Positions 3,318 through 30,658 of a DNA stretch of 35,763 nucleotides are shown one piece after another (the first letter of the stretch is position 1; each line of letters opens with the position of its first letter). Location: positions 1-35,763 of the forward strand of contig CALJAA010000076.1 in assembly GCA_938028465.1 (NCBI GenBank), in the 5' to 3' direction. The notes beneath the pieces were generated by a model. The model was not told the origin of the DNA, ran no database searches, and saw only the letters and a program-made list of their open reading frames with translations. The position numbers and the translations under genes are program-made. The DNA comes from an uncultured Granulosicoccaceae bacterium. Lineage in GTDB: Bacteria > Pseudomonadota > Gammaproteobacteria > Granulosicoccales > Granulosicoccaceae.

Positions 3318-3337
3318 AATTAATATCCGTACACCGA

Positions 3338-4009: not shown

Positions 4010-4098
4010 TGATATCGCAAATTAGTTGAAAATATAACTAAGTTGTTGGTTTTGTGAACAATATTGTGAATTTCCTTTTTTCGGTTTTCACACAATTC

Positions 4099-4138
4099 AA
4101 AGAGGATCCGTAGAGACATACCCCCTACGGTCCTCTTT
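4099..4138 (-). terminator. Hairpin between the TPR gene and the sigma gene
   Basis: The arms 4099-4113 and 4125-4138 form a 14-bp stem with one bulged T and an 11-nt loop. On the minus strand it sits just after the TPR-protein stop and can end that transcript, although the T-rich tail on that side is short (CTTTG). The longer T-tract is on the plus strand (4136-4141), where no gene converges. It probably separates the lipoprotein-TPR unit from the sigma/anti-sigma unit. Confidence 0.6.
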
Positions 4139-4143
4139 TTTAG

Positions 4144-4602
4144 TTAATTAATCGATGCCAACGCTCTATCAAGATCATCTAATTCCTCACAACCAATTGG
4201 GCATAACTCAGCAAGCATGGCGCGGTTTGCTCGAGCTTTGTCGTATTGTTGCGTTTCGATAAAAAGCTCGCCTTGATACTCCAACGCACCCTTGTGCTCG
4301 GGGTTGTACTTAAGCGCTTTTCGATAGGCTTTGCTGGCTTTCTTGTACTTGCCTAGCTTCCGATTTGAATAGCCCAATAAATTCCAAGCATCGGCGTTTT
4401 TATAATCTTCCCTGATGATGTGGTTCAGTTTGCGAATTGCTGCTTTATACTTATTTTGCCCAAGAAGCGACTGAGCTGCATTCATATGTTTGTTTAAACT
4501 AGCATCGTTCGAATCGCTATCATAGCCGGATCCACCACTACTACCAGCTGCGTAGGCGGCTTGTGATACGAAAAGTGAAATTACTAAAATAAAATATTTC
4601 AT
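4144..4602 (-). CDS. Small exported TPR protein
   Basis: A 152-residue protein with a signal peptide (residues 1-19, ending AAYAAG) and about three tetratricopeptide repeats between residues 38 and 135. The clearest is NADAWNLLGYSNRKLGKYK, followed by a second unit with the ALKYNPEHKGALEY pattern. Two cysteines near the end (CPIGC) could pair in the periplasm. It follows the two-repeat lipoprotein gene by 45 bp on the same strand, so the two are probably co-transcribed. TPR proteins act as protein-binding scaffolds; the partner is unknown. The hairpin at 4099-4138 follows the stop. Confidence 0.82.
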   Translation of the reverse strand: MKYFILVISLFVSQAAYAAGSSGGSGYDSDSNDASLNKHMNAAQSLLGQNKYKAAIRKLNHIIREDYKNADAWNLLGYSNRKLGKYKKASKAYRKALKYNPEHKGALEYQGELFIETQQYDKARANRAMLAELCPIGCEELDDLDRALASIN

Positions 4603-4647
4603 GGGTTGTTCTCCTAATGGTTTTGATTAGTTAGTTATGTAGTGGAT

Positions 4648-5463
4648 TTAACGAGATACCGGCACAGCGACTTCCCATACACCGTTTACACCGTTACCGT
4701 TGGTGTCACCCGCTGCTGAATCGCCTTGGAAGAAATAAAGTGGCTGACCGTTTTGTGCCCATTGCACGGTGTTATCGGCGCGTGTAATGAGCGTGAAGTC
4801 GTCTGCTGGCAAAGCTCCCGCATCAGCGTACAGTGGTGGCCATACAACAGCACATTGGCCGTTACATACAGACGTATTTAATGAATCGTTTCGAAAGGTG
4901 TATAACGTTAATCCGTCAACATTGTTGCGTACGGCGGGATCACCTGATCCGTCATTTATATTGCCGGCACCAACAAAAACAGTGCCTAAGGCTGTTGTAC
5001 CAGTTGAAATCGGGTCAGGCCTTGTAACAAACCACACACCACCACTACCTTCTCCATTAATCTCCCCAGCGGCAGCATCACCCTGGAAGTAATACACGGG
5101 TCGACTTTTAAAGGTAAATTGGAATCTACCATCGCTAAGTTCAATGGTTCCAAACTGTCCTTCCGTCGTGGCCGATGCTGCTATGACAGGCGGCCATACC
5201 TCCAAGCAGCCACCAGTACAGTTAGAAACGTTGTCATCATCATTATCAAAGGTGTACAAGGTACGGTTAGCGTTACCAAATGCGAACACAGCTCCAATTG
5301 CTGAATCTTCGGTTCGGCCGATTCCGGTTGTACTGGAACCATCAGTATCATTTTGATCAGCTTGCGCTGTATCGTTAGAGCTGCTACAGCCGTAGAGGCC
5401 AACAGATATCGTAATGACACCCATGACCAAAACTTGTTTTATTCGCTTATTGAAATGTTGCAT
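4648..5463 (-). CDS. Lipoprotein with two 'secreted repeat' domains (COG4315 / PF03640 type)
   Basis: A 271-residue lipoprotein. The leader ends in a lipobox-like GLYGC, which would make Cys26 the lipidated residue. Two copies of the roughly 100-residue repeat follow, at about 52-148 and 157-267. Each copy has LYTF, then a Cys-x3-Cys pair followed by VWPP, then a PxYxFQGD motif and GVW. This is the COG4315 type of secreted repeat, whose biochemical role is unknown. It is the first gene of a pair with the TPR protein and lies beside an ECF sigma/anti-sigma pair, so envelope-stress or redox-linked control is plausible but not shown. The linker after the lipobox is rich in Asp, Ser and Thr. Confidence 0.85.
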   Translation of the reverse strand: MQHFNKRIKQVLVMGVITISVGLYGCSSSNDTAQADQNDTDGSSTTGIGRTEDSAIGAVFAFGNANRTLYTFDNDDDNVSNCTGGCLEVWPPVIAASATTEGQFGTIELSDGRFQFTFKSRPVYYFQGDAAAGEINGEGSGGVWFVTRPDPISTGTTALGTVFVGAGNINDGSGDPAVRNNVDGLTLYTFRNDSLNTSVCNGQCAVVWPPLYADAGALPADDFTLITRADNTVQWAQNGQPLYFFQGDSAAGDTNGNGVNGVWEVAVPVSR

Positions 5464-6055: not shown

Positions 6056-6718
6056 TTATTGGTTGGCCAGTTCAGTTACGTTACCTGACACTCTTTCTAT
6101 GTAGGCACCATAGCCGGTTTTTGCCATTTGCTCTAACGGAATGAAACGCATAGCGGCTGCATTCATGCAATATCGCTTACCTGTTGTAGCTGGGCCATCA
6201 TTAAACACATGCCCTAAATGAGAATCAGCCAACGAACTACGAATTTCTGTGCGCGCACCAAAAATCGATATATCTGATTTTTCCACAACAACGCCTTCTG
6301 AAATTGGTCGATCAAAGCTAGGCCAGCCCGTTCTTGAATCATATTTATCAATGGACGAAAACAACGGCTCTCCTGAAACAATATCGACATACAAGCCAGG
6401 TCGCTTCTCATTGTGCATTGAGTTAGAGAAGGCGCGTTCTGTGCCCTCATGTTGAGTCACTTTGTATTCAATCGCCGATAGTCGCTTTTTGAGCTCTGCA
6501 TCCGAAGGCATTACGAAGTTATCAGGGTTATACACCGCAGCTGTTCCTGGGTACGTGGTTGACATAGGTTTATCAGCAGGCAAACCGGTATTATCTCGAA
6601 GGGCCTCAGTTGCTGATTGAGATGCTCCTTTGTTAGCGTTTTCGGTTGGATAAAAAGCCATAGAAGCTGCGACTCCGAGCGCCACTGTGATACCAGCGAC
6701 CATTGTTAAACGCTTCAT
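6056..6718 (-). CDS. msrB: Exported peptide-methionine (R)-S-oxide reductase MsrB
   Basis: A 220-residue protein: an N-terminal hydrophobic signal or anchor segment (residues 1-22), a 45-residue linker, and a full MsrB domain from about residue 71 to 196. It reduces R-methionine sulfoxide in proteins, here probably in the periplasm. Diagnostic motifs are HEGTERAF (90-97), GWPSF (131-135), [10 protein letters not shown] (167-176) and RYCMN (182-186), with catalytic Cys184. This is the only cysteine in the whole chain. The zinc-binding CxxC pairs are missing, and the position before GWPSF that usually carries the resolving cysteine is Thr130. A G-rich Shine-Dalgarno lies just upstream of the ATG. 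No msrA is nearby. Confidence 0.92.
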
Positions 6719-6996
6719 AGTGCCCCCCTGATTGTTTTATATATAGTGACTAAGAGCTTTATTAAGTGTTGTAAGTTCCCGTATAACTCAAACTTCACCC
6801 ACAGGCCCCATACCTAAATGGTTAGCTTCTGGATTTGCCTAATGGGCACCCGGTAGATTTGAAGCTCTTCTCACTCTTAACAATGTAACACTGACCACTC
6901 ATCAAGAATGAGCCAATGAGCATCCCATCTTTCAAGTACCGACAACTCTGGCCGCCTTACTAGTGAAGTATATGAGTAAAATGAAAAGGATGCCTC

Positions 6997-7998
6997 ATGA
7001 TCAAACTCTGTCAAATTGCCAATAAGGCCAAAGGACTACCAGCGCCAAACGTACGTGCTAACTCTCTCACCGCCGCTGTGGTTTGTTCTCTGTTGTCGGC
7101 TTGTGGTGGTAGCAGTTCAGAAGGGCCGCCCCAAGCGCTAGCTGCTAGCAGCAATCAAATTATCGACTTACCGGCAGACACCATATCGCGAATCGGAACA
7201 GTGACTTTTGCCGCTATTGATGGCAAAGGCTACACCGAGCTTGGCTTTCCATCGGGGTATGTTGTTGCTGATGCCGTATTCACCGACTATCACGAAGTCC
7301 TTAATAATGCGTTTTTGTCTAATCGTTTTCCTGCTGCTGATACCGACACATGCCTAATAACAATAGACAGTACTGATGACTCTCAAAACACAGGGCTTGA
7401 GAATAATTCTGAATTCCTACAACTGATTGCAGACTCAAGCACAATAGCAGCCGGCGAGGCATTAAGTATTTCAACGCCAAGCACTAGTTGGCCTGATCTC
7501 ATTTTGTCGGAGGAAACTTTTGGAGAAGTCCAATCTTTCTACTACGAATTTCAAACCGATACATCATCACTAGGCACGCTACCAGCCGGCAGCTCTATAA
7601 GTATCCCTGGAGATGAATTTCCCGCTTTCCTGAGCCTATCTATCCCCACAGTGGCACAGGTAAAAGAGGCTTCACTATCCAATATAGTGGGTGGTTTGAT
7701 CTCACCAGAAACGACCGTAACATGGGCCAAACCTCAGACTCCAAATTCAAATGAAATTACTACAATCTCATCATATGTTGAGGTGACCGATAATGCAAAG
7801 AATGCTGAATTGAGTATAACGATGATTTGTACGGTTGATGATGATGGAGAGTTTAATTTCCCCAACAATGCTAAGCAAGTATTATCTGAATACAATATAC
7901 CCGCTGAACAACTTTCGCTGGGTCGCTTTGGCGTGACGAGTGAGGTACAAGGAGACGCCGCAGCCATAGTCATTAACGCTTCGGTTTATTCTTTCTGA
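6997..7998 (+). CDS. Lipoprotein of unknown function
   Basis: A 333-residue protein that I do not recognise. The leader is long and ends in the lipobox LSAC, followed by GGSSS, so it should be lipidated at about Cys36 and anchored in the envelope. The mature part is acidic, rich in Ser, Thr and Asp, and predicted to be mostly beta-strand, with no clear catalytic motif. Two well-spaced cysteines (in DTCLI and MICTV) could form a disulfide. The ATG has a good Shine-Dalgarno (AAAAGGA, 6984-6990) six bases upstream. It stands alone, with about 280 bp of non-coding DNA before it, in which I see no clear element. Confidence 0.7.
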   Translation: MIKLCQIANKAKGLPAPNVRANSLTAAVVCSLLSACGGSSSEGPPQALAASSNQIIDLPADTISRIGTVTFAAIDGKGYTELGFPSGYVVADAVFTDYHEVLNNAFLSNRFPAADTDTCLITIDSTDDSQNTGLENNSEFLQLIADSSTIAAGEALSISTPSTSWPDLILSEETFGEVQSFYYEFQTDTSSLGTLPAGSSISIPGDEFPAFLSLSIPTVAQVKEASLSNIVGGLISPETTVTWAKPQTPNSNEITTISSYVEVTDNAKNAELSITMICTVDDDGEFNFPNNAKQVLSEYNIPAEQLSLGRFGVTSEVQGDAAAIVINASVYSF

Positions 7999-8137
7999 TG
8001 CTAGTAGCCATGTACCTCCTGTTTTCGACAATGGCTTTCGGCAGGATATTATTTAGCGTCGTGATTGAATAATCCACTACGAGTGATTGCAACTACACCA
8101 CGGTTTGCGTATATTCCCAAAAAAATCGTTAAAATCT

Positions 8138-8827
8138 ATGTGTCAGCTCAACCTAAAATCACTGTTGCTTATCGTAACCTTACCGCTAACGGTTACACAA
8201 GTATTTGCGCAGACCGCACCTTCTGCAACTGAAATTGCAGGCTATGAAGATCTCCATGCCGCGGCTCATACCGGCAACCTGCAATCACTCGAAACGTTGT
8301 TATTGAGTGGCTCTAATATAGAAGCATTGGACAGCTATAGCCGCACACCTCTTCACGTTGCAGCATACGCCTCTAACGATGAGATTGTAGAACGCTTAGC
8401 CAAAGCTGGCGCTAACCTCAATGCACTCGAACTACACGCCTACGATATCGTGACCATTGCAGCAGTTGCCAATGACTTAGCGCTTATGGATTTAGCACTA
8501 CGCTTAGGCGCTAAATCAGGTAATGTCACCAGTCCTTACCACGGTACAGCGCTAATTGCCGCAGCTGACCGTGGGCATATTGAGGTAGTGCAACGATTGA
8601 TTGATGCAGGCGCACCACTTGATCATATAAATAACTTAGGATGGACAGCGCTACTAGAGGCCGTCATTCTAGGGGATGGAGGCCCTAATTACGTAGCTAT
8701 CGTTGAGGCACTACTTAAAGGTGGTGCCAATCAAACTTTGGCCGATAAGGATGGAATGACGCCGTTAAAGCACGCTCAACAACGCGGTTTTGACAACATG
8801 GTGAAAATACTGGAAGCCAATAAATGA
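8138..8827 (+). CDS. Exported ankyrin-repeat protein
   Basis: A protein of about 229 residues with a clean signal peptide (hydrophobic core, ending VFAQ), followed by five or six ankyrin repeats covering the rest. The clearest are SRTPLHVAAY, GTALIAAADRGHIEVVQRLIDAGA and DGMTPLKHAQQRG. Ankyrin arrays bind other proteins; the partner is unknown. I chose the ATG at 8138 because it gives a normal signal peptide. An upstream in-frame TTG at 8087 would add 17 residues and has no better ribosome-binding site. The stop overlaps the start of the nrtS-like gene (ATGA at 8824-8827), so the two are translationally coupled. Confidence 0.85.
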   Translation: MCQLNLKSLLLIVTLPLTVTQVFAQTAPSATEIAGYEDLHAAAHTGNLQSLETLLLSGSNIEALDSYSRTPLHVAAYASNDEIVERLAKAGANLNALELHAYDIVTIAAVANDLALMDLALRLGAKSGNVTSPYHGTALIAAADRGHIEVVQRLIDAGAPLDHINNLGWTALLEAVILGDGGPNYVAIVEALLKGGANQTLADKDGMTPLKHAQQRGFDNMVKILEANK

Positions 8828-9048
8828 CGTTTTTCCGACTAGCGCGCCGCCCTGCTATCGTCAAACGATCAATTATCATTGCGGCCATCGTTGGAACCAT
8901 CCTCAATTTGATTAATCAAGGTGATCTCATTGATGATATGTCCAAATTCCAATGGTGGAAATGTATGTTGACGTATCTGGTGCCGTATTGCGTCTCAACA
9001 TACGGTGCCGTTTCAGCCTTGATGGATACACAAAAAAAAGCTAGCTAA
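8824..9048 (+). CDS. nrtS: Small membrane protein, NrtS-type nitrate/nitrite transporter
   Basis: A 74-residue protein with two hydrophobic segments (about residues 15-28 and 46-66). It carries the conserved pattern of the NrtS family, NLINQGD in the first segment and LTYLVPYCVSTYGAVSA in the second. NrtS proteins are very small nitrate/nitrite transporters thought to act as oligomers in the inner membrane. The start overlaps the stop of the ankyrin gene by four bases (ATGA). No nitrate or nitrite reductase gene lies within the window, so the transport role rests only on family resemblance. Confidence 0.75.
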   Translation: MTFFRLARRPAIVKRSIIIAAIVGTILNLINQGDLIDDMSKFQWWKCMLTYLVPYCVSTYGAVSALMDTQKKAS

Positions 9049-9697
9049 CGCCTTCCTCCTCTTCGATCAGTTGTTTTATAACGGCAAGATAATTCTCAAC
9101 TCCTTGAGCGCCAGTAACGAGATACTTATCGCGAAAAACCATTGCCGGCACACCAGTGATTCCGTGATCAGTCCAATGTTTTTGGCGTGCCCTAACATCG
9201 GTTGCATAAGTTTGATCCGTTAACACTGTTAAGGCTTCACCTGAATCAAGCCCCGCATTGCTTACGGCCTCTATTAATACATCATCATCACTGACATGTT
9301 GTTTGTCTGTGAAATAGGCTTTGAACAGCGCAAGCTTCAGCTTATGTTCGTGTTCTAGGGATTTCAGCCCCGCCCAATGCAATAGCTGGTGTGCCTTAAA
9401 CGTGTTGGCCATGCGGCTATCGTCAGAGAACCTAAACTCAAAACCCAACGAATCCCCAATATCGGTTAGCCGTTTTCGGTTTTCGTCGCTTTGTTCTTTT
9501 GAGCTGCCGTACTTTTCGCTAATGTGCTCTTGCAGGTTTTGACCTTCTGGTGGCATCGTTGGGTTTAGCTCGAACGGCTGCCAATGAATCTCAGCGGTTA
9601 CATCACTTTGCGCCAAAGCTTGCTCTAATTGCTTATAACCTACGATGCACCAAGGGCACACGACGTCTGAGACGATTTCTATTTTTAGTGATTTCAT
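9041..9697 (-). CDS. DsbA-family oxidoreductase (FrnE-like)
   Basis: A 218-residue protein of the DsbA-like thioredoxin-fold superfamily, closest in pattern to the FrnE / 2-hydroxychromene-2-carboxylate isomerase branch. The active site CPWC is at residues 14-17 directly after the first beta-strand (IEIVSDVVCPWC). The helical insert and the cis-proline loop (TGVPAMVF, near residue 187) are in the expected places. There is no signal peptide, so it acts in the cytoplasm as a thiol-disulfide oxidoreductase or isomerase. The substrate is unknown. Its 3' end overlaps the 3' end of the nrtS-like gene by 8 bp on the opposite strand. Confidence 0.88.
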   Translation of the reverse strand: MKSLKIEIVSDVVCPWCIVGYKQLEQALAQSDVTAEIHWQPFELNPTMPPEGQNLQEHISEKYGSSKEQSDENRKRLTDIGDSLGFEFRFSDDSRMANTFKAHQLLHWAGLKSLEHEHKLKLALFKAYFTDKQHVSDDDVLIEAVSNAGLDSGEALTVLTDQTYATDVRARQKHWTDHGITGVPAMVFRDKYLVTGAQGVENYLAVIKQLIEEEEGVS

Positions 9698-9936
9698 GTA
9701 ATTAATCGATTAACGGCTGTAGTCAGATACTACTCTATCAGCATAAATGGTTACATATTTGACGGGTGTTCATGACAAAAGTTGAATAAGCGGAATAATT
9801 GTACGATCGATCAAAACAACTGTACGCAAAATCATAGCCTGTTTTTAATTGCACCCTAAAATATTGTTGAAGCTTGCTGCATCAATCAGTTGCAGATCAA
9901 GTGCCTCTTCTGCAAATTGATTTAGGATGGATACAC

Positions 9937-10497
9937 ATGAAAATTAAACTGTTAATCGCTACTGCGGTAGTTGTGGCTCTTACGGGCTGCGCTAATACGC
10001 CTTACGGCAATACAACCGAATCGAAAGCCGCTCAAACACCAGATCAATTAAATGATCTTGAAATGGCACACGCTGCTTACACTGCTGACAACATTGATAT
10101 TCAATATGCGCACTTAGCACTCAGCATTTCTCAAAACCCTGATGTCCAGGAATTTGCTAAAACGATGATCAGAGATCACGAAGCAGTTAACGAGCAAGCA
10201 CTGGCATTGCTAGCAAAGTTAGGTGCGCAGCCGCAAGATAACTTCCTCAGCCAAAGCCTGACTGAAGGTTCTGTCAAGATTATCGATGAATTGAGCCAAT
10301 TGCGTGGTGCGGCGTTTGATAAGCGTTATGCTGAAAACGAACTGGCGTACCACAAAACAGTCAATAACGTGGTAGAAAACGCGTTTATCCCCAACATTGA
10401 AAATGCTGAAGTGAAGTCGCTATTTGAAGCAGGCCTACAGATCTTCAAAGCACACGAAGGCCATGCTGAGATGATGGTTAAAAAACTGGGCGGCTAG
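9937..10497 (+). CDS. DUF4142-family lipoprotein
   Basis: A protein of about 186 residues, with a lipoprotein leader (MKIKLLIATAVVVALTGC) and then a ferritin-like four-helix DUF4142 domain. The domain shows the typical pattern of helices with His and Glu (EMAHAAYTADN, MIRDHEAVNEQ, AYHKTVNNVV, AHEGHAEMM). Members are envelope proteins of unknown biochemical role. The ATG at 9937 is preferred because an AGGATGG ribosome-binding site lies seven bases before it and the lipobox follows at the usual distance. A longer reading from a TTG at 9874 would hide the lipobox. A terminator-like hairpin follows 30 bp after the stop. Confidence 0.85.
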   Translation: MKIKLLIATAVVVALTGCANTPYGNTTESKAAQTPDQLNDLEMAHAAYTADNIDIQYAHLALSISQNPDVQEFAKTMIRDHEAVNEQALALLAKLGAQPQDNFLSQSLTEGSVKIIDELSQLRGAAFDKRYAENELAYHKTVNNVVENAFIPNIENAEVKSLFEAGLQIFKAHEGHAEMMVKKLGG

Positions 10498-10526
10498 CCA
10501 GTAAACTTAGCGTGTTATAAACTGAT

Positions 10527-10557
10527 AGGCGGTACCGGCAGGTGCCGCCTAAGTTTT
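10527..10557 (+). terminator. Stem-loop after the DUF4142 gene
   Basis: A 10-bp stem with one G-U pair (10527-10536 with 10541-10550), a GGCA loop, then a short T-run (10554-10557). It can end the DUF4142 transcript. The ribosome-binding site of the next gene (CGGAGGT, 10558-10564) begins directly after the T-run, so it could also act as an attenuator on the TPR gene. Confidence 0.55.
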
Positions 10558-10568
10558 CGGAGGTATTC

Positions 10569-11171
10569 ATGCTCAGATTAAAACAAAATGCGTTGATCAC
10601 TATTCTAGCCTTCGCAAGCGCTCTAGCGATATCAATCGGCGTGGCGAATGCATCTGATACGTCCACCTCGGATGCAAACAAGATTGCTTTGTTTGCAAAT
10701 CTAGCCAACGCCAAAACCGAAAAAGAGGGCAAACTTGCCGAAGAAGCCATCTGGCAGTATTGGTTTGACCAATCACCTACAACTGATGTACGAGCAATAC
10801 TTGATGCTGGCATCGAACGGCGTGAAGCCTATGATTTTGAAGCGGCTGAAAAACACTTTGATAAGGTTGTTGAACTAGCGCCTAACTATGCCGAAGGTTA
10901 TAACCAACGCGCATTTGCTCGGTTTTTGCGTGAAAACTACGAAAACTCAAAAACAGATCTTGAAACCGCAATTAAGTTAGAGCCCGATCATTTTGGCGCA
11001 CTATCGGGTTTGTATCACGTATTGCAGATTCAGAATCGTCAAAAAGCGGCAATAAATATGCTACAAAAAGCGGTTGTTATTCACCCTTGGTTGCGAGAAC
11101 GCCTAGCATTACCAAAAGATCTATGGCCCGAAAATTACCGAAAGATTCATGGCCCCGGTCAAGAAATATAG
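10569..11171 (+). CDS. Exported TPR protein
   Basis: A protein of about 200 residues with a signal peptide (MLRLKQNALITILAF..., cleaved after VANA). A helical segment and two to three TPR units follow, around residues 85-170 (EAADKHF-like pairing, then NYAEGYNQRAFARFLRENYE and DHFGALSGLYHVLQIQNR). The start at 10569 is supported by a strong Shine-Dalgarno (GGAGG, five bases upstream); an ATG at 10542 in frame lies inside the preceding hairpin and is unlikely. TPR proteins are binding scaffolds; no partner can be named. It converges on the choline-sulfatase gene with a 6-bp gap. Confidence 0.85.
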   Translation: MLRLKQNALITILAFASALAISIGVANASDTSTSDANKIALFANLANAKTEKEGKLAEEAIWQYWFDQSPTTDVRAILDAGIERREAYDFEAAEKHFDKVVELAPNYAEGYNQRAFARFLRENYENSKTDLETAIKLEPDHFGALSGLYHVLQIQNRQKAAINMLQKAVVIHPWLRERLALPKDLWPENYRKIHGPGQEI

Positions 11172-11177
11172 CGAGCC

Positions 11178-12701
11178 TTACTCCCCCCGCGGGAATCGCT
11201 GGTTCTCCTCAAGTACGTTTAAGTCCATATGGTTTCGCATATAACGCTCTGATGCTTTTTGCAATGGTTGAAACTCCCAAGGATAATAATTACCGTTCCT
11301 CAGCGCCTCGTATACAATCCATCTACGAGCCTGCGATTCTCGTACTTGATTATCAAACTGCTCTAAATCCCAACGCTTGTCAGCCTGCTCCCTAAACTGC
11401 TGCAGCACATCCTGATAATCGCTTGATTCAGCCAAATTAGTTATCTCCTGAGGGTCATTGTCTAAGTTAAATAACTGTTCTGGATCTAGTTGGCAACGGT
11501 TATATTTCCAGGCACCCTGCCGAATAGACACCACGGGCGCATAACTACCCTCTGCTGCATATTCCATTAACACAGGCGCATCACGTGTAGCGCCACTGCC
11601 CATAGGCACCAAGCTCATGCCATCTGTCCACGGTTGGACTTCATCAAGCGATACACCTGCAAGCTCTGCCACGGTGGGTGTCACATCAATATTCGACACG
11701 GGTGTTTGCACCAAACCAGGTTGCATATTAGGTGCACATATCATCAGAGGTACCCGAGAGGAACCCTCAAGAAAATTCATCTTAAACCACAAGCCCTTTT
11801 CGCCAATCATATCGCCATGATCTGATACGAATACGATTGCCGTGTTGTCGGCTTGACGAGTTTCCTCCAATACTTGCAATAGCTGACCAATCTTTTCATC
11901 GAGGTAAGAAATATTGGCAAAATACGCTTGTCGTGATCGCCGCACGTCTTTAGTTGTTATATCAAACTCAGTGTAATCATTAGCAAGCATGATACGTTTT
12001 GAATGCGCATCGTAATCTTCATAGTTATATGCAGCCTCGGTCGGTTCAAGGTGTTCGCAATCGATATACAAATCCCAAAACTTTTTACGCGCTACGTATG
12101 GGTCGTGTGGGTGTGTAAAACTGACGGTTAACGACCAAGGACGCTCATCCAAACCACGAGAGAGTTGATACAATTTTTGAGTAGCAAAATTTGCTACCTC
12201 ATCATCGTATTCCATCTGATTGGTGATCTCGGCAACACCTGCGCCCTTAACCGATCCCATGTTGTGGTACCACCAATTGATGCGCTCACCCGGTTTTCGA
12301 TAGTCGGGCGTCCAACCAAAATCTGCGGGGTAGATGTCCGTGGTTAAGCGTTCTTCAAATCCGTGAAGCTGATCGGGCCCGACAAAATGCATCTTGCCTG
12401 ACAAACACGTGTAATAACCCGCACGACGTAAGTGATGAGCGTAGGTTGGGATATCCGATGCAAACTCGGCTGCATTATCATAAACACGAGTACGAGACGG
12501 CAATTGGCCTGACATAAAGCTTGCTCGGCCTGGTGCACATAGAGGGGATGCCGTATAAGCATTTTGAAATCGAGTCGAACGTGTGGCCAGTGCTTTTAAG
12601 TGCGGCGTATGCAACCAATCCACAGGCCCATCTGGAAACAAGGTTCCATTGAGCTGGTCGACCATGATGATTAGAATATTGGTTTTATTTGCTGCCATCA
12701 T
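11178..12701 (-). CDS. betC: Choline-sulfatase
   Basis: A 507-residue type I sulfatase that closely follows the choline-sulfatase pattern. BetC hydrolyses choline-O-sulfate to choline and sulfate in the cytoplasm, feeding glycine betaine synthesis or providing sulfur. The formylglycine motif CAPGR is at residues 55-59 within SPLCAPGRASFMSG, and Asp15 in IMVDQLNG is a metal ligand. The blocks SGKMHFVGPDQLHGFEERL and FTHPHDPYVARKKFW are family hallmarks. Full length. Two ATG codons are in tandem; the second has better spacing from GAGGA. No betA, betB or betI gene is beside it, unlike the classical bet operon. It lies 74 bp downstream of tex on the same strand. Confidence 0.92.
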   Translation of the reverse strand: MMAANKTNILIIMVDQLNGTLFPDGPVDWLHTPHLKALATRSTRFQNAYTASPLCAPGRASFMSGQLPSRTRVYDNAAEFASDIPTYAHHLRRAGYYTCLSGKMHFVGPDQLHGFEERLTTDIYPADFGWTPDYRKPGERINWWYHNMGSVKGAGVAEITNQMEYDDEVANFATQKLYQLSRGLDERPWSLTVSFTHPHDPYVARKKFWDLYIDCEHLEPTEAAYNYEDYDAHSKRIMLANDYTEFDITTKDVRRSRQAYFANISYLDEKIGQLLQVLEETRQADNTAIVFVSDHGDMIGEKGLWFKMNFLEGSSRVPLMICAPNMQPGLVQTPVSNIDVTPTVAELAGVSLDEVQPWTDGMSLVPMGSGATRDAPVLMEYAAEGSYAPVVSIRQGAWKYNRCQLDPEQLFNLDNDPQEITNLAESSDYQDVLQQFREQADKRWDLEQFDNQVRESQARRWIVYEALRNGNYYPWEFQPLQKASERYMRNHMDLNVLEENQRFPRGE

Positions 12702-19237: not shown

Positions 19238-20140
19238 CTAACTGGCTTTTGTTATTTTGCGTTTACCAAAGGAACCGCTAACAATAGCCACGCCCAAAAC
19301 ACATAAGGCCGTGCCCGTTATAACGTTAAGAGTAAGCGGTTCTTCAAATAGCCACCATGCTTCAATGGCAACCACGGGTGGTACTAGGAAGAACAAAGCA
19401 GAGACACGCCCCGCCTCACCGACTTTAATAAGCCACATCAGCAGAAACACGGCACCAAGGGATAACACTAATACTAACCACACCATGACAAGCTGTAGTT
19501 TAGGGGTCCAATCAATTGCGTAAGACTCCCAAGCCCATGCAAATGGCAGTAAAAATAATGCGCTGGCGATGTACTGAGCAATCATATTAAAGTGCAAATC
19601 AATCGATTGGCAAAAACGCTTTTGATATAAGGTGCCAAGCGTAATCCCAAATAGCGCTGCAACACAAAAACCAATGCCCTTTGCCGATATCACATCATCG
19701 GCTTGGCCCCATGCTGCAGTGACAAATGCAACACCTATAAAACCTAGTGTAATACCAATTAATTTAGCTTTACTAAGCTTCTCTGATAACCAAACTGCGG
19801 CGAGCAACACAGTGAGTACTGGCTGTATTCCAACGATGAGAGATGATAAACCAGCGCCTATACCTTCGTTAACTCCGGCAAACACACCACCGAGATAAAC
19901 GGCCTGCAACAATACGCCAGCCACTGCAGCATGTGCTAGCTGCTTCCAATGTAGCTTCATGGTTTTGAGCTTTGGGAACAATATGCTCAGCGCTAATAAG
20001 GCTAACGCTGCTAGTGCAAATCTTATTGAAAGGAAACTTGCAGGCTCTGCTGTTTCCATACCAAAGCGCGCCATAATAAAACCAGTGCTCCACAGTAGTA
20101 CGAACATCAAGGGAATAAAGGAGCGCAATACAGCAGCCAT
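19238..20140 (-). CDS. DMT-superfamily transporter (EamA type)
   Basis: A 300-residue membrane protein with about ten hydrophobic helices in two EamA repeats (about 8-140 and 152-290). The first repeat shows FVLLWSTGFIMARFG, and helix 4 shows LSSLIVGIQPVLTVLLAA, the usual pattern. Members of this group export amino acids and other small metabolites. It is the last gene of the minus-strand glutamate mutase operon: the start lies only seven bases after the ligase stop. That position suggests it exports, or possibly imports, the operon's product or a related acid, but the substrate is not known. Confidence 0.88.
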   Translation of the reverse strand: MAAVLRSFIPLMFVLLWSTGFIMARFGMETAEPASFLSIRFALAALALLALSILFPKLKTMKLHWKQLAHAAVAGVLLQAVYLGGVFAGVNEGIGAGLSSLIVGIQPVLTVLLAAVWLSEKLSKAKLIGITLGFIGVAFVTAAWGQADDVISAKGIGFCVAALFGITLGTLYQKRFCQSIDLHFNMIAQYIASALFLLPFAWAWESYAIDWTPKLQLVMVWLVLVLSLGAVFLLMWLIKVGEAGRVSALFFLVPPVVAIEAWWLFEEPLTLNVITGTALCVLGVAIVSGSFGKRKITKAS

Positions 20141-20147
20141 GCTGCTA

Positions 20148-21719
20148 CTAGCTCCTAGATAGTTCGCGTTTCAGCTCATCCTTGTTAATTTGATTTTCGT
20201 CGCTTTGCACCAATGGCAACGATTTACGATACACAATACGGCTTGGAATCATATAAGACGCTAGATGCTTCTTGAGCTCAAACGTAATCTCTTTCTCTGA
20301 GATCTCGCTGGGCGATGAATACACCATAACGATTTCTTCTTCAATCTGCGGGTTATCCATGCCGAAAACAGCACATTGTTGTATCTGCGGTAGGTGCTTT
20401 GAAACAACAGATTCGATTTCATAGGGTGATACGCGAAAACCGCTGGTTTTAATCATGTCATCACGACGAGAGACAAAGTAAAAATACCCCTCTTCATCTT
20501 TGTATACATAATCGCCAGTTGCCACCACGATTTCATCAGCCAGCTGCCCTTCTAGCTCGACTACATTCTTTAAAATCTGTACTGATTTGAATCGCTCTGC
20601 TGTATCTTCTGGAGCATTCCAAAACCCGCGATAGATGTAGCTGCCTCGATGGATTAACTCGCCGACTTCACGTACCTTACACTCTTGTCCTTCTTCATTT
20701 AAAACGTATAGTTCAACGTCTGGTATCGCTTTGCCGATAGATTCAGGTCGAATCTTTATCTGAGCAGGGTCTAGAAAAGTGGAGCGGAATGCCTCGGTTA
20801 AGCCGTGCATCGAGTAAAAACTGGCATTTTTAAATGTTTTCTCACAATCATCGATCATCTTCGTCGTGACGTTACCACCAGATGATGTGATCGTACGAAC
20901 CTTGTCAAACAACTCCACATTTGTATGTGCGTAGAGATCTTCGTCAAACATCTGCGAAATATTAACAGGCATTAGTGGAAGAACCGTAACGCCATCATTT
21001 ATTAGATGATTGAAAAAATCTTCCGGCAAAATAAACCGATGTAAGGCTAAGGTTGCACGGTTCATCAATGAACAGAAAATTTGATTTAGACCGTAATCGA
21101 GGTTAAATATGAGTAGCCCAGAAATGACGTCATCTTCGTTGAGATCCAGATACTGTGTAACCACGCGTGCGGAATCAATCAGGTTACGATGCGATATAAC
21201 GATACCTTTTGGCGTGCCTGTTAAGCCAAAGGAATACGTAATAACCGCATTTTCATGGCCATTGATATCACAACTGAATGGTTTGTTGTAATACTTGTAG
21301 ATTTCTTCAAACGATGGGATGTCTTTGCCGGCGTTTTCTATCGATACGATATGCCCTTCAAAGTTAATTTCCTCGATACTTTCAAGCTTTAATTTGTCAG
21401 TGATGATGCATTGGATACCACAGTCATCAATGATGTATTGAACCTGCTCAGGTTTGAGCAGGCGCGTTAATGGTACCAATATATAATCAGTTGAAAGGAT
21501 CGCTAATATGGCAATGACCTGCGAGGTATCTTTGTTGGAGTAAATCCCTACTCGTGCACCTTTTGGTAAGTCCAGCTCTTGCAGATACAGCGCAACCTGA
21601 TTTACCCGAGCCAACAGCTCAGCGTAAGTAAGCTGTTTTTCTTTATGTGTTAGTGCAATCTTGTCTGGGTGCGATTGAGCAGCGTTTTCTAGAAGAATAC
21701 GAATACAGTTTATTGACAT
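20148..21719 (-). CDS. Stand-alone AMP-forming acyl/aminoacyl ligase
   Basis: A 523-residue member of the ANL (adenylate-forming) superfamily. The P-loop-like A3 motif is YSFGLTGTPKG (162-172), A5 is HGLTEA (305-310), TGD is at 401-403, and the hinge segment SRRDDMIKTSGFR is at 417-429. Lys513 sits where the catalytic C-terminal lysine is expected. The overall pattern (LLKPEQVQYII, ISHRNLIDSAR, LDYGLNQIF) resembles the AMP-ligases found beside exosortase systems, but no exosortase gene is seen. Its 5' end overlaps mutL by 10 bp, so it belongs to the mutase operon. It has no attached carrier domain. Substrate unknown; an acid made by the mutase branch is the natural guess. Confidence 0.88.
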   Translation of the reverse strand: MSINCIRILLENAAQSHPDKIALTHKEKQLTYAELLARVNQVALYLQELDLPKGARVGIYSNKDTSQVIAILAILSTDYILVPLTRLLKPEQVQYIIDDCGIQCIITDKLKLESIEEINFEGHIVSIENAGKDIPSFEEIYKYYNKPFSCDINGHENAVITYSFGLTGTPKGIVISHRNLIDSARVVTQYLDLNEDDVISGLLIFNLDYGLNQIFCSLMNRATLALHRFILPEDFFNHLINDGVTVLPLMPVNISQMFDEDLYAHTNVELFDKVRTITSSGGNVTTKMIDDCEKTFKNASFYSMHGLTEAFRSTFLDPAQIKIRPESIGKAIPDVELYVLNEEGQECKVREVGELIHRGSYIYRGFWNAPEDTAERFKSVQILKNVVELEGQLADEIVVATGDYVYKDEEGYFYFVSRRDDMIKTSGFRVSPYEIESVVSKHLPQIQQCAVFGMDNPQIEEEIVMVYSSPSEISEKEITFELKKHLASYMIPSRIVYRKSLPLVQSDENQINKDELKRELSRS

Positions 21720-22912
21720 GATGCGTACTCCTTAGCGCCGATTGTCCAGATGTCGTAGTTGGCATCCAGTACTGTTACCGGCTTGTGGTCTGAATTTAAG
21801 ATTTTTCGATAGAAAAAAGCCACCACATCTTCGATGTCTTCAACAGTCAGTACTTTTGTTATCCCACCCGTAAAGACAATTGAATTCATGGCCAGGAGTT
21901 TTAGTGTTACATTCGCTGTTCGATAGTGTGACATCTCGCATAGCACTAAGAATATGGCTAACTGCATAATAACCTTTGTCGCACGTTCGCTGTTTTCTTT
22001 GTAGATGCTTTCGGTTACTTTAAGATGCATCAGCAACTCATAGGCAAATTCATTTTGTTCAGCGGTAAAAATCAAAGACTCTCTTGATTTAAATACACCG
22101 AGCTTTTTAAATACGATCCGATCATGACCTTGTTCAGTGACAATATTGTCGCGAACCAAATCTTTCGAGTAATGAACATCAGTGGTTGCACCGCCGATAT
22201 CGAGCAATATAAATGGATCTGTTACTGAAAATGTCGCATTGATCTCCGGTAACGATTTATTTACAACGTAAGGCGTTGAATAGATTTGATTGCCGGTGAT
22301 CTTGTAGAGATCCTTAATGTCTTCCTTACCTTCAATATCTTGTTGATATAGGTTGGTTAAATACTCCTTTAGGTGTTTTTCTACGATATGAAGGCGATTA
22401 TCAATAACATTTGGCAATACAAGCAGTTTATCTATTCGCGATGCAAGGCCCATAGCATCTGGACCGTTGCCTACATAAACAATATTCGAGTAGTTTAGCT
22501 TTTCAAGATAATTATCAAGGCGCTCATCAAATTGACCACCATTGGAATCGATACCACCCACAATAATCACAACATCGATGAGATCACTCGGGATTGAGTA
22601 GTCTTCTATATCTTGAAAGATGATCGAATCAATAACATTGATACCCGCGTTATAGGCAATGTTGGTTGCATATTTTAATGAGTATGAATGGGTAAGCCCG
22701 ATTATAAGCGTACTTAAGCCACCATTAGCCGATGAGCATATATGGATATCATCTGATTCAAAGCGTTGCACGGTATCACTACACTTGTGCATTAAGTCAT
22801 CGAGTATCTGCTTATTGAAATCCCGAAAATGCTGCTCGATGGATTCCTTAGTGCTGACTTTAAAATAGGTACTGCCGATATCAATTAGCAATTTGTCGCT
22901 TGAGGTACTCAC
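21710..22912 (-). CDS. glmL: Glutamate mutase-associated protein MutL (GlmL)
   Basis: A 400-residue protein of the MutL family that sits between or beside the mutase subunits in glutamate mutase operons (not the DNA mismatch repair protein). It has an actin/Hsp70-like ATPase fold: phosphate-1 motif DIGST at 11-15, phosphate-2 motif DIGGATTDVH at 238-247, and VVIIVGGID near 114-122. It is thought to help reactivate or assemble the B12 enzyme; the mechanism is not settled. Start codon GTG, overlapping the glmE stop as GTGA (22909-22912). The end overlaps the ligase start by 10 bp. Confidence 0.9.
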   Translation of the reverse strand: MSTSSDKLLIDIGSTYFKVSTKESIEQHFRDFNKQILDDLMHKCSDTVQRFESDDIHICSSANGGLSTLIIGLTHSYSLKYATNIAYNAGINVIDSIIFQDIEDYSIPSDLIDVVIIVGGIDSNGGQFDERLDNYLEKLNYSNIVYVGNGPDAMGLASRIDKLLVLPNVIDNRLHIVEKHLKEYLTNLYQQDIEGKEDIKDLYKITGNQIYSTPYVVNKSLPEINATFSVTDPFILLDIGGATTDVHYSKDLVRDNIVTEQGHDRIVFKKLGVFKSRESLIFTAEQNEFAYELLMHLKVTESIYKENSERATKVIMQLAIFLVLCEMSHYRTANVTLKLLAMNSIVFTGGITKVLTVEDIEDVVAFFYRKILNSDHKPVTVLDANYDIWTIGAKEYASCQ

Positions 22913-24273
22913 TGCATTATCCCGATATCATGAATGATGTCATTGACGATACTGGTTGTATCTTTGTTTAGGTCACAACACGATTTTTCGTATTCATAGC
23001 AATGATCAGGTATCGGTACATTACCACGCTCAATAATGCGAATATTCTTTTGCGGATCGCGAATGGTGATCATCTTATTGTGATTGATGATATGCGGTGA
23101 GAATGGCACATCGATAATGCCGTTTTTAATTGAGTTAAATACTTTGCGCCATAAGGTATCCGCTGGATCGTTAAACACCGCCTCCATAATGGCGTGTACC
23201 TCTGCTGTAAGTATTTCTTCTTCTTGCTCATCTACCACAGCTGGCAATCCACTGAGTATGTTTAGCGTGTACTGCGTATTGGCCACGGTTTGAGCATTGG
23301 CTTCCTTGGTCGGTATCCCAACGGCTTCTTCTCGGGTTTTCGTGATGATTTTGTCCGCTCCACACATGGAAGCAATTACCGTCGACATATTAATAAGCTG
23401 ATCTGCCGAGTCTCGATTCATCGGAAATGCGCCCATCCACTGATGATAAACCAGATTAATTACCGCATCTTCGCAACCGATTTGCGCGGCATAGTGTTCA
23501 GCCAGTTTGCGAGTAACCGTGCCAGTCACGATGTCCTGAATCATAGAGCCTTGTTGGGCAAATGATACTGAAAACGATTTCACTCCCTCTTCTAGAGACA
23601 ACAACATCTCCAGTAACTGAATAACGATAGTGATAGACGGCGGCACCAGTGTTGCCGTAAGCGGCCCAAACGATTCTCGGTTAATCGGTTTGTTAAGTGT
23701 TGAGTAGTCGGCGCAAACTCGCTCTACATATTTCCAATACAAAAAAGCTTTATCCAAGGGGAAGTTCTTGGAATATGGGAGTAGATAGGTGATCGGGCCA
23801 CCTTCGATCTCAAAAATACCAGACGCAATGGCGATTTCAATAAGTAGCCGTGCATCGGGTGTGCCGTGACGCAAGCTTACCGGATGATTAAAATGCGTCA
23901 TCATCTTACGTGTTGTACGGTAGCCATGGTTGACTAGGGGGTAGCCGTTTAGCATGTCAACTTCGTTGGCTTCACTTAAACGCAACATTTTTTTAGCTGT
24001 GGCGTAATCGTTGAGGCGTGTGTTGGAGTCAATCGTAAGGGGTAGCACATCTACATTGGCATCAACAAAAAATTCGTACAGCGCATACTGTTTTTCATAG
24101 GTTGGGAACCCACCGCGTGGCTGCACCAGCATCTTTCCTTTTTTGGCAAAATGATGCGAGATAAACAGATTTTCGTCAGCGCCTTTTACAAATTCTCTTA
24201 CTTCATCAAAATCAAACGAATCGACATTTTCATTGCCGAGGATGATCTCTCGTTCTTCTTGTAACTGGCTCAT
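22909..24273 (-). CDS. glmE: Glutamate mutase catalytic (epsilon) subunit GlmE
   Basis: A 454-residue GlmE/MutE subunit; with GlmS and adenosylcobalamin it interconverts L-glutamate and (2S,3S)-3-methylaspartate. All substrate contacts of the Clostridium cochlearium enzyme are kept: Arg53, Arg86 and Arg135 (the three-arginine clamp, R66/R100/R149 there), Glu157, Tyr163 and Tyr167. Lys312 and Glu316 in KTREEAVGIPTKEAN match the cofactor-contacting pair. Blocks NREsFGPLTATLVPPS and YHQWMGAFP are also family hallmarks. I chose the ATG at 24273, two bases after the glmS stop; reading back to a TTG at 24342 would add unconserved residues overlapping glmS. Confidence 0.94.
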   Translation of the reverse strand: MSQLQEEREIILGNENVDSFDFDEVREFVKGADENLFISHHFAKKGKMLVQPRGGFPTYEKQYALYEFFVDANVDVLPLTIDSNTRLNDYATAKKMLRLSEANEVDMLNGYPLVNHGYRTTRKMMTHFNHPVSLRHGTPDARLLIEIAIASGIFEIEGGPITYLLPYSKNFPLDKAFLYWKYVERVCADYSTLNKPINRESFGPLTATLVPPSITIVIQLLEMLLSLEEGVKSFSVSFAQQGSMIQDIVTGTVTRKLAEHYAAQIGCEDAVINLVYHQWMGAFPMNRDSADQLINMSTVIASMCGADKIITKTREEAVGIPTKEANAQTVANTQYTLNILSGLPAVVDEQEEEILTAEVHAIMEAVFNDPADTLWRKVFNSIKNGIIDVPFSPHIINHNKMITIRDPQKNIRIIERGNVPIPDHCYEYEKSCCDLNKDTTSIVNDIIHDIGIMQ

Positions 24274-24275
24274 GC

Positions 24276-24683
24276 TTATCTGTGTTCCTGGATGTACGTT
24301 TCGAGCATGTCTAAACCCGTGTTCAAATCGACTTGGTGACAAACCAAGTCAAAACCATAATTTTTATAACGCGGCACGATGTCTTCGGCGTTACCACTAC
24401 CCACGGTAAGGTTGCCACCAATCATCATGGTTAGATTGTCAAGGCTCTTATACTTAGCTTTGAGTAGTTTGACTTCGCGCCCCCATCCCTCAGCTTCACC
24501 ATTGAGAGAGGAAATCAGTAGTATTTCAGCACCGGTTTCAACCACCGCATCGAAGAACTCTTCTAGATAGGTGTTGACGCCTAAATTGAATACTTCATAG
24601 CCCCTCGCATTGAGAGAGAGATCCATTAATCGGTTGGCGACAACGTGTATATCATTGCCAATTACACCCGTTACAACTTTCAT
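24276..24683 (-). CDS. glmS: Glutamate mutase B12-binding (sigma) subunit GlmS
   Basis: A 135-residue cobalamin-binding subunit with the Rossmann-like fold of GlmS/MutS. The base-off/His-on motif reads D-x-H-x-x-A here (Asp11, His13, Ala16) in place of DxHxxG; His13 is the lower axial ligand to cobalt. The nucleotide-tail site ISSLNGE (near residue 57-63) and GGN (near 89-91) are present. It is the first gene of the operon, so the mutase is made as glmS then glmE, separated by two bases. This is the amino-acid mutase subunit, not glucosamine synthase, which shares the symbol. Its promoter lies in the 127-bp gap shared with the RraA-like gene. Confidence 0.93.
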   Translation of the reverse strand: MKVVTGVIGNDIHVVANRLMDLSLNARGYEVFNLGVNTYLEEFFDAVVETGAEILLISSLNGEAEGWGREVKLLKAKYKSLDNLTMMIGGNLTVGSGNAEDIVPRYKNYGFDLVCHQVDLNTGLDMLETYIQEHR

Positions 24684-24810
24684 GCTTTAAGCGCCTTATA
24701 TCCAGCCGATCATAGTATCAAAAGACACCGGGCCCAGCGAAGCTGAGATGGTAGAATTTAGCCTTAAAACCTCGTTTATCGGGGCTAGCGACCTAATCCG
24801 AGAGCAAAGC

Positions 24811-25293
24811 ATGGCTGATTTTACTGCAGATTTTTGTGATAACCATCCTGACAAAGTGTCCGTACTGGGCCCGGGGTACTCAAACTACGGCGGCGCTGCC
24901 ATGTGCCAAGGCGAAGTCGTGACCATCCAACTTGATCGAAACAACAGCGATCTCATCACACTTTTGCGGGATGAAGATGGTACTGGCAAGGTGGTTGTTG
25001 TGGACTCTGATGAAGCCTACTACGCCATTGTAGGTGAAAACTTAATGAAGTTTGCGCTTAAAAATGGCTACGCTGGGATCATTGTTAACGGCTACATAAG
25101 AGATACGCAGCAGATCAAAGACATCCCCGTAGCACTCTATGCGCTAGGCACCTGCTCTAAGAAATTCATACCCGTTACGCAAGGCAAACGCGATGTTTCC
25201 TTGAGTTTTGGAGGCACAGAATTTCGCCCAGGAGATTATGTTTATACCGATACAGATGGGGTGATTGTGACGAGTGGGAAGATTGTTTCTTGA
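24811..25293 (+). CDS. RraA-family protein, probable aldolase/decarboxylase
   Basis: A 160-residue protein of the RraA / class II HMG-CHA aldolase family. Arg97-Asp98 in NGYIRD are the catalytic pair that distinguishes the 4-hydroxy-4-methyl-2-oxoglutarate aldolases (many of which also decarboxylate oxaloacetate) from the RNase E regulator RraA, which lacks it. Block GENLMKFALKNGYAGIIV upstream is the cofactor and substrate loop. Homology begins at the ATG at 24811 (MADFTADFCD), so I prefer it; an ATG at 24748 would add 21 residues. It diverges from the mutase operon. A keto acid from 3-methylaspartate is a plausible substrate, but this is only inferred. Confidence 0.83.
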   Translation: MADFTADFCDNHPDKVSVLGPGYSNYGGAAMCQGEVVTIQLDRNNSDLITLLRDEDGTGKVVVVDSDEAYYAIVGENLMKFALKNGYAGIIVNGYIRDTQQIKDIPVALYALGTCSKKFIPVTQGKRDVSLSFGGTEFRPGDYVYTDTDGVIVTSGKIVS

Positions 25294-29551: not shown

Positions 29552-30658
29552 ATGAAAATCTCTGAGATACACATTTATCAAAAAGATCTACCCATTGTTG
29601 ATGGTCCCTACACCATGTCAACAATTACCCTGCACTCCATCGATACGACGATTGTAAAAATACTCACGGACACCGGCCTAACAGGATGGGGTGAAGTCAC
29701 ACCTCTTGGACCAAACTATCAACCACAACATGCCATGGGCGCGAGGGCCGCAATTGCTCATATGGCACCAGGGTTAATTGGGCAATCATGTTTAGATCAC
29801 CTACTTCTACGACGGCACATGGATGGTCTGCTCGATGGTCACAACTACGCGAAGGCCGCAATCGATATCGCGACTATGGATTTGGTTGGTAAGCATCATG
29901 GCGTAAGAGTGTGTGATCTTTTAGGTGGTGCAGTGAGTGAAAGATTACCGGCTTACTATGCCGTTGGTATTGGAAGCCCAACTGATACTGCAAATATTGC
30001 GGTAGATAAGATCAAGCAAGGCTATAACCGCCTTCAGTTCAAAATAGGTGGTCGTGATATCTCAACCGATATTGAAGTCATGCAGAAGGTTTGGGAAACC
30101 GTTGGGCACAAGGTACAACTTGTCGCTGACGCAAATCGCGGGCTTACGGCCGCACAGGCAAAACAATTTAGCGTGGGCTGCCGCAATATTCCGCTTGTCA
30201 TGGAGCAGCCTTGCAATACGATGGAAGAAGTTAAATCCATCCGTTCTCAGGTATGTCATCCATTGGCAATCGATGAGAATCTTGAAAGCGTGCATGATGT
30301 ACTGCGTGCAATCTCTATGGATGTAGCAGATGCGTTTGGGTTAAAGATCACTCGCTTGGGCGGAATCAATGCAATGGTAACGGTGCGCGATATTTGTGAA
30401 GCACGCCGTATACCCCACAGCATGGAAGATACATGGGGTGGCGATATTGTGTCAGCTGCTATTTTGCACGTTAGCGCTACAGTAAAACCTGAATTACTTG
30501 AAAGCGTGTGGACTTCCGGCAACTACATAGATGAACACTACGACCCAGATAACGGTATTGCTGTTGACGGGGGTTACTTTGAGGTGCCGAAGGGTGTTGG
30601 TTTAGGAGTTACACCCGATGAAGGACGCATTGGTCAATTGGTCGCCTCTTATAGTTAG
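29552..30658 (+). CDS. Enolase-superfamily epimerase/racemase, hydroxyproline-betaine 2-epimerase-like
   Basis: A 368-residue member of the mandelate racemase group of the enolase superfamily. It resembles the hydroxyproline-betaine / proline-betaine 2-epimerase (HpbD) subgroup, which racemises the osmolytes so they can be catabolised. Catalytic bases Lys164 (in QFKIGG) and Lys265 (in GLKITRLGG) match the two-lysine pair, and Asp193, Glu218 and Asp241 are the metal ligands. Blocks DGPYTMST, RRHMDGLLDGHNYAKAAIDIA and SMEDTWGGDI fit HpbD well. A cis-3-hydroxyproline dehydratase is the main alternative, as the two functions share a fold. No demethylase genes are beside it. The ribosome-binding site is weak. 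Confidence 0.82.
   Translation: MKISEIHIYQKDLPIVDGPYTMSTITLHSIDTTIVKILTDTGLTGWGEVTPLGPNYQPQHAMGARAAIAHMAPGLIGQSCLDHLLLRRHMDGLLDGHNYAKAAIDIATMDLVGKHHGVRVCDLLGGAVSERLPAYYAVGIGSPTDTANIAVDKIKQGYNRLQFKIGGRDISTDIEVMQKVWETVGHKVQLVADANRGLTAAQAKQFSVGCRNIPLVMEQPCNTMEEVKSIRSQVCHPLAIDENLESVHDVLRAISMDVADAFGLKITRLGGINAMVTVRDICEARRIPHSMEDTWGGDIVSAAILHVSATVKPELLESVWTSGNYIDEHYDPDNGIAVDGGYFEVPKGVGLGVTPDEGRIGQLVASYS

Follow-up and report, generated by a model that had tools for sequence, protein, structure and literature searches.

A glutamate mutase operon and its gene products

The stretch analysed here, hereafter the window, comprises the 35,763 nucleotides of contig CALJAA010000076.1 (assembly GCA_938028465.1) from an uncultured Granulosicoccaceae bacterium, and the system in question is a minus-strand operon, glmS-glmE-mutL-ligase-EamA, together with an RraA-like gene that diverges from it. 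An earlier note on this DNA had described this arrangement with its gaps and overlaps, and both coordinates and family matches confirmed it. The genes are as follows:

24748..25293, plus strand: RraA-like protein (PF03737), divergent from the operon
24276..24683, minus strand: glmS, B12-binding small subunit of glutamate mutase (NF002612, 142 bits, cut-off 110)
22909..24273, minus strand: glmE, catalytic subunit of glutamate mutase (PF06368, 397 bits; PDB 6h9e, 1cb7)
21710..22912, minus strand: mutL/glmL-like reactivating factor, short form of 400 amino acids (PF13941, 86 bits, cut-off 27)
20148..21719, minus strand: stand-alone ANL-family (AMP-binding) protein with a VinN-like pocket, an altered A3 loop and the A10 lysine not at its expected place (the ligase)
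19238..20140, minus strand: EamA-type transporter, 7 bases past the ligase gene; a local addition outside the conserved module

Genome contigs were scanned for GlmE, which yielded 215 relatives, and the best 80 of these were examined together with the window (81 loci). The open reading frame (ORF) list placed the start of glmE at a TTG codon (base 24342); homologues begin at residue 24 of that frame, an ATG at base 24273, and a Met occupies this position in 75 of the 81 aligned rows. With glmE started at base 24273, the gap between glmS and glmE is 2 bases, as the earlier note had it, while glmE and mutL overlap by 4 bases and mutL and the ligase gene by 10. The conserved start of the RraA-like protein is probably residue 22 (base 24811). 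No B12 riboswitch was found upstream; an Rfam gathering search of the window and of loci L017, L019, L029 and L056 returned one tRNA only.

GlmE aligned with the clostridial glutamate mutase structures 6h9e and 1cb7 in a PDB search and scored just below the cut-off of TIGR01503 (376 bits, cut-off 390). Its substrate contacts, which we take to be R66, R100, N123, R149, E171, Y177, Y181, K326 and E330, were located by counting along the 1cb7/6h9e alignments, and all nine positions were identical in 81/81 rows, which bears out the earlier identification of a glutamate mutase with its substrate contacts retained. GlmS fell below the cut-off of TIGR01501 (87.5 bits, cut-off 135.8), and its base-off cobalamin motif, presumably DxHxxG...SxL...GG elsewhere, reads DxHxxA (residues 11-16 of the window's protein) in 81/81 rows, with SSL and GG likewise present in all 81. 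The MutL match to NF040745 (75.8 bits) was far below the cut-off of 475. The assignment of GlmSE as a glutamate (methylaspartate) mutase is supported, its activity being predicted from family and contact residues.

Conservation and distribution of the module

The conserved unit, a divergent rraA followed by glmS-glmE-mutL-ligase, recurred in the 81 loci examined. A glmS gene was present in all 81 and mutL in 80, the remaining locus being cut by a contig end. The ligase gene occurred in 76/81 loci, that is, in 76/76 where the contig was long enough, since in all five loci without it the contig breaks off less than 0.8 kb downstream from glmE. For rraA the count was 71/81, on the strand opposite to the operon in every case (71/71); two of the ten loci without rraA have less than 1.4 kb upstream of glmE, and locus L023 and seven Arcobacter-type loci lack the gene despite 8.7 to 10.1 kb upstream. 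In loci L003, L004, L020 and L072, rraA lies 3 to 10 kb from glmE with other genes between it and glmS. Its recurrence in 81 loci marks the gene set as more than a chance association. Only the window and L001 have EamA (2/81 loci), which makes the exporter a local feature. The comparison of GlmE neighbourhoods that the earlier note had proposed upheld the linkage of ligase and rraA; it did not uphold membership of the exporter in the system.

Apart from the five module genes and an aminotransferase, no family of at least 80 amino acids was common to more than 9 of the 81 loci. A carrier protein, which the earlier note had suggested looking for elsewhere in the genome, did not recur in the 4 kb searched after the ligase in these loci. 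A general conserved gene after the ligase was also considered and rejected: the largest small-ORF family there, a cytochrome-like ORF, reached only 9 loci, those printed being of the Arcobacter type. Thirty Campylobacterota loci, in part overlapping the 81, were examined too and contained ligase in 30, glmS in 30, mutL in 29 and rraA in 26. Of the four without rraA, one (L154) is truncated by the end of its contig. No mutL was seen in L151, whose ligase lies ~6 kb away, and L155 showed no glmE in the ORF selection, although the genome scan had matched one.

The module is shared by marine bacteria of two distant groups, Campylobacterota and Gammaproteobacteria. Its occurrence in Granulosicoccus and relatives is patchy (19 of 57 genomes match, one only remotely), and it is rare in an even sample of Pseudomonadota, where GlmE was matched in 6/398 genomes, with more than 80% identity in only two, the window's genome and one other; in Campylobacterota GlmE was found in 31/298 genomes at 69-84% identity, and 30 of these supplied the Campylobacterota loci described above. 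A quick GlmE tree of 114 rows, in which many forks are weak and the midpoint root falls beside very long remote rows, nested the gammaproteobacterial rows within a wider range of Campylobacterota rows, which fits a transfer of the module into Gammaproteobacteria without proving it. Up to 13 of the 36 stretches examined have flanking genes in common, which we take to reflect common descent. Pairwise distances correlated (rho 0.29 to 0.80), a result that fits co-inheritance and carries little weight, as the comparison included no control gene. Between the window and L001, nonsynonymous divergence (dN) was 0.011-0.041 for glmS, glmE, mutL and the ligase gene and 0.10 for rraA, and synonymous divergence (dS) was 1.3 for glmS, 2.4 for rraA and 3.1 for glmE, with mutL and ligase saturated; the three locus pairs compared indicate that the module proteins are under strong purifying selection. 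Carriage by a phage, viral contig or plasmid was considered and rejected: there was no phage match and no viral contig relative, and all 30 plasmid records were below 60% identity, the 20 listed reaching at most 40%.

A PduO-type cobalamin adenosyltransferase was found in the window's genome and in 13/13 Granulosicoccus genomes. Among Campylobacterota this type was matched in 0/31 module-positive and 0/10 module-negative genomes, and CobA in 0/7 of the module-positive genomes tested. Campylobacterota carriers of the module encode an adenosylcobalamin-dependent mutase, yet neither adenosyltransferase type tested was matched in them.

The ligase, the RraA-like protein and associated enzymes

The ligase was aligned in 105 module rows, 100 of them distinct, as some genomes duplicate loci already included, together with three outgroup ligases. 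Its core is nearest VinN and keeps most VinN contacts; on full length, VinN ranked 12th among the PDB matches listed (E 5e-36), with several peptide-synthetase domains ahead of it. The VinN pocket residues D230, F231, S299 and R331 correspond to D208, Y209, S280 and R312, of which D208, S280 and R312 occur in 105/105 rows, with Y209 instead of F231 in all of them; D208 and R312 are also present in 3/3 outgroups and S280 in none. The position of VinN K330 is Phe in 104/105 rows, and the beta13-beta14 loop is gapless against VinN, but likewise against one of two LgrA domains. The A3 loop, whose usual form we take to be TSG[ST][ST]G, as seen in VinN and the outgroups, reads SFG: F164 replaces the A3 Ser in 105/105 rows (100/100 distinct), and 3/3 outgroups have Ser. 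The A10 column holds Lys in 46/105 rows and Gln in the window; Lys is found at 508 or 510 in 80/105, so that the A10 lysine may only have shifted. D403 (A7) and R418 and D420 (hinge) are retained in 105/105. Because the ATP loop and the adenylation lysine depart from the family, it is doubtful that the protein acts as an ordinary AMP-forming enzyme, as the earlier description of an AMP-forming ligase implied.

The best NCBIfam match of the ligase, the exosortase-associated ligase TIGR03098, remained below the cut-off (446 bits, cut-off 592). Related ligases neighbour a carrier protein and a pyridoxal phosphate (PLP) decarboxylase: a carrier protein accompanies two annotated plasmid relatives, and in one of them a PLP decarboxylase as well, whereas no carrier was found after the module ligase. 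Locus L168 (genome G085, 6528-11908) combines a fused GlmS-GlmE and a VinN-like ligase with a PLP decarboxylase and a carrier protein, and may be a Pseudomonadota cassette for loading 3-aminoisobutyryl units.

The HMG/CHA aldolase and RraA family (PF03737) presumably carries the motifs D-x20-R-D or G-x20-R-D-x2-E/D, whereas the module protein has E-x20-R-D-x2-Q; E-x20-R-D, a metal-binding motif with R-D, was present in 68/68 rows, and E97 was conserved at 90% or above in a 28-member set that included Campylobacterota. NCBIfam names the protein RraA, RNase E regulator (NF006875, 140 bits, cut-off 136), and RraA structures fit it better than aldolase does. RNase E/G was matched above cut-off in 0/31 Campylobacterota; the window's genome has two such matches, so a role as RNase E regulator is possible there. 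The RraA-like gene co-occurred with the module in 26/26 positive genomes tested and was found in 0/14 negative ones.

In their flanks, 32/81 loci have a gene for a class I Asp/aromatic aminotransferase, which is directly convergent with rraA in 26, and three of these proteins matched NF006719 (566-573 bits, cut-off 377). It is an extra copy in 16/16 genomes tested (15 distinct): the flank copy was 73-78% identical to the query copy (100% in the genome from which the query came), and one or more further copies were 38-68% identical, that in genome G059 being interrupted by stops. Granulosicoccus genomes hold copies at 40-47% only, so the flank aminotransferase is not universal in the module.

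Methylaspartase, reported absent from the locus by the earlier note, was not found genome-wide either: PF07476 had no match in the window's genome (88.8% complete), and TIGR01502 gave 0/57 module-positive genomes above cut-off, with three weak partial matches, in a test that lacked a positive control, as none of 14 control genomes passed the cut-off. An enolase-superfamily MR_MLE gene lies ~4 kb from the module (29552-30655, plus strand), preceding homogentisate dioxygenase, fumarylacetoacetase and GST genes. It was considered as a hidden methylaspartase and rejected, since the Pfam models that it matches are those for mandelate racemase/muconate lactonizing enzymes. Elsewhere in the window (2631-5463, minus strand), a row of genes for a zinc-finger protein, an ECF-type sigma factor, a TPR protein and a secreted-repeat lipoprotein is likely a sigma/anti-sigma unit.

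Candidate fates of 3-methylaspartate

Both fates considered for the mutase product, a 2-oxobutyrate route and activation, are already in print; the earlier note's view that they were undescribed was too strong. PMC7476758 gives a glutamate mutase route to 2-oxobutyrate as one of the ways to isoleucine, with Abramsky 1962 as its source. VinN is described as binding 3-methylaspartate and activating it (PMC11253843), a mutase is used together with VinN in the sce and vin clusters (PMC5785472), and glmS, glmE and mutL belong to the methylaspartate pathway of glutamate fermentation (PMC4682846). The module shares those three genes with the fermentation pathway but has the ligase and RraA, and methylaspartase was not found. 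It resembles the vicenistatin-type starter pathway (VinH/VinI glutamate mutase, VinN, VinL carrier, VinO decarboxylase) in pairing a mutase with a stand-alone adenylation-type protein that has a similar 3-methylaspartate pocket, but differs in that no carrier protein was found after the ligase, in adding RraA and often an aminotransferase, and in its altered ATP loop. A literature search found no paper that pairs glutamate mutase with RraA, and among the papers listed on the organisms or enzymes no title pointed to the module's gene set.

We tentatively favour a dedicated, transferable 3-methylaspartate module in which transamination and RraA decarboxylation to 2-oxobutyrate form the likeliest carbon route. 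GlmSE with adenosylcobalamin would convert L-glutamate to the rare amino acid (2S,3S)-3-methylaspartate, as family and invariant contacts suggest, with MutL as the predicted reactivator of GlmSE. A transaminase, the extra paralogue by the module in many Gammaproteobacteria and a housekeeping one elsewhere, would then give 3-methyloxaloacetate, which the RraA-type metal enzyme would decarboxylate to 2-oxobutyrate and CO2; the net chemistry would be 2-oxoglutarate to 2-oxobutyrate and CO2 without ATP or NADPH. The VinN-like protein, to judge by its pocket, would recognise 3-methylaspartate as a beta-amino acid and either activate it for some acceptor or serve as a non-ligating partner. The basis of this pathway reading is the gene set with its conservation, linkage, co-occurrence and motifs, and activities and products are predicted. 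The transamination and decarboxylation idea, already raised in the earlier note, has gained support from the flank aminotransferase, its status as an extra paralogue and the invariant E-x20-R-D motif. The module could cover the mutase, transamination and decarboxylation steps that we take to make up the 2-oxobutyrate/isoleucine route, whose genes, to our knowledge, have not been assigned; it differs from that route in adding the ligase and in the retention of threonine deaminase.

Several observations weigh against this assignment. The ligase is the most constant partner, yet it has no role in a 2-oxobutyrate route, and the carrier protein and PLP decarboxylase beside related ligases point to amino-acid activation. 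Both the NCBIfam name and the structural matches of the RraA-like protein favour RraA over aldolase. The aminotransferase was not seen in 49/81 loci, including the window and L001-L015 (some contigs being short). Threonine deaminase was matched in 52/52 genomes, module-bearing or not (48 above cut-off), and was above cut-off in 31/31 module-positive and 15/20 module-negative Campylobacterota; these counts do not support replacement of this enzyme by the module, and 2-oxobutyrate is not obviously needed, so the module route would be an extra source.

Activation as the core function is possible, if rather doubtful: the VinN-like enzyme would adenylate C4 of 3-methylaspartate and hand it to CoA or to a carrier protein from another locus, to make some metabolite or decorate the cell surface, with RraA and the transaminase only clearing 3-methyloxaloacetate formed as a side-product. 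This would employ the module's most constant partner. It also needs an acceptor, and neither a carrier protein nor any other general gene was found after the ligase; furthermore, VinN trails peptide-synthetase domains among the structural matches, Phe stands at the K330 position, D208 and R312 are shared with the outgroups, and the A3 Ser and, in the window, the A10 Lys are replaced. We rank the 2-oxobutyrate route, which draws on co-inherited genes and spends no ATP or NADPH, above activation; both may be true.

That the ANL protein is a former ligase, now binding 3-methylaspartate and adenosine as a partner of the mutase (for channelling, regulation or cofactor handling), seems quite improbable. 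A changed A3 loop and an unfixed A10 lysine beside invariant D403, R418 and D420 would suit such a partner, as would the missing PduO and CobA matches in module-positive Campylobacterota; but the lysine may merely have moved to 508 or 510, and the PduO type is equally missing from module-negative Campylobacterota and present in all 13 Granulosicoccus genomes, so its absence is no mark of the module. We know of no precedent for a non-ligating ANL partner of a mutase. An ordinary glutamate fermentation remnant with chance neighbours, although every family is already known, can be set aside as very improbable, being contradicted by a gene set constant across two phyla, the RraA co-occurrence, purifying selection and the failure to find methylaspartase.

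Returning to the favoured 2-oxobutyrate route, we consider its boldest form unlikely, namely that the module assigns genes to a B12-dependent bypass which leads from 2-oxoglutarate to 2-oxobutyrate and has spread between Campylobacterota and Gammaproteobacteria, and that its VinN-type enzyme has turned into a non-ligating, 3-methylaspartate-binding partner of the mutase or uses changed adenylation chemistry. The favoured route, if right, would supply genes for the 2-oxobutyrate route cited to 1962, suggest that RraA-like proteins have a catalytic function where bacteria lack RNase E, and reveal in marine bacteria a branch of B12-dependent amino acid metabolism. If the ligase is instead the core, the module would point to an unidentified product built on 3-methylaspartate. 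Under either reading, the strong conservation says that the function of the module matters.

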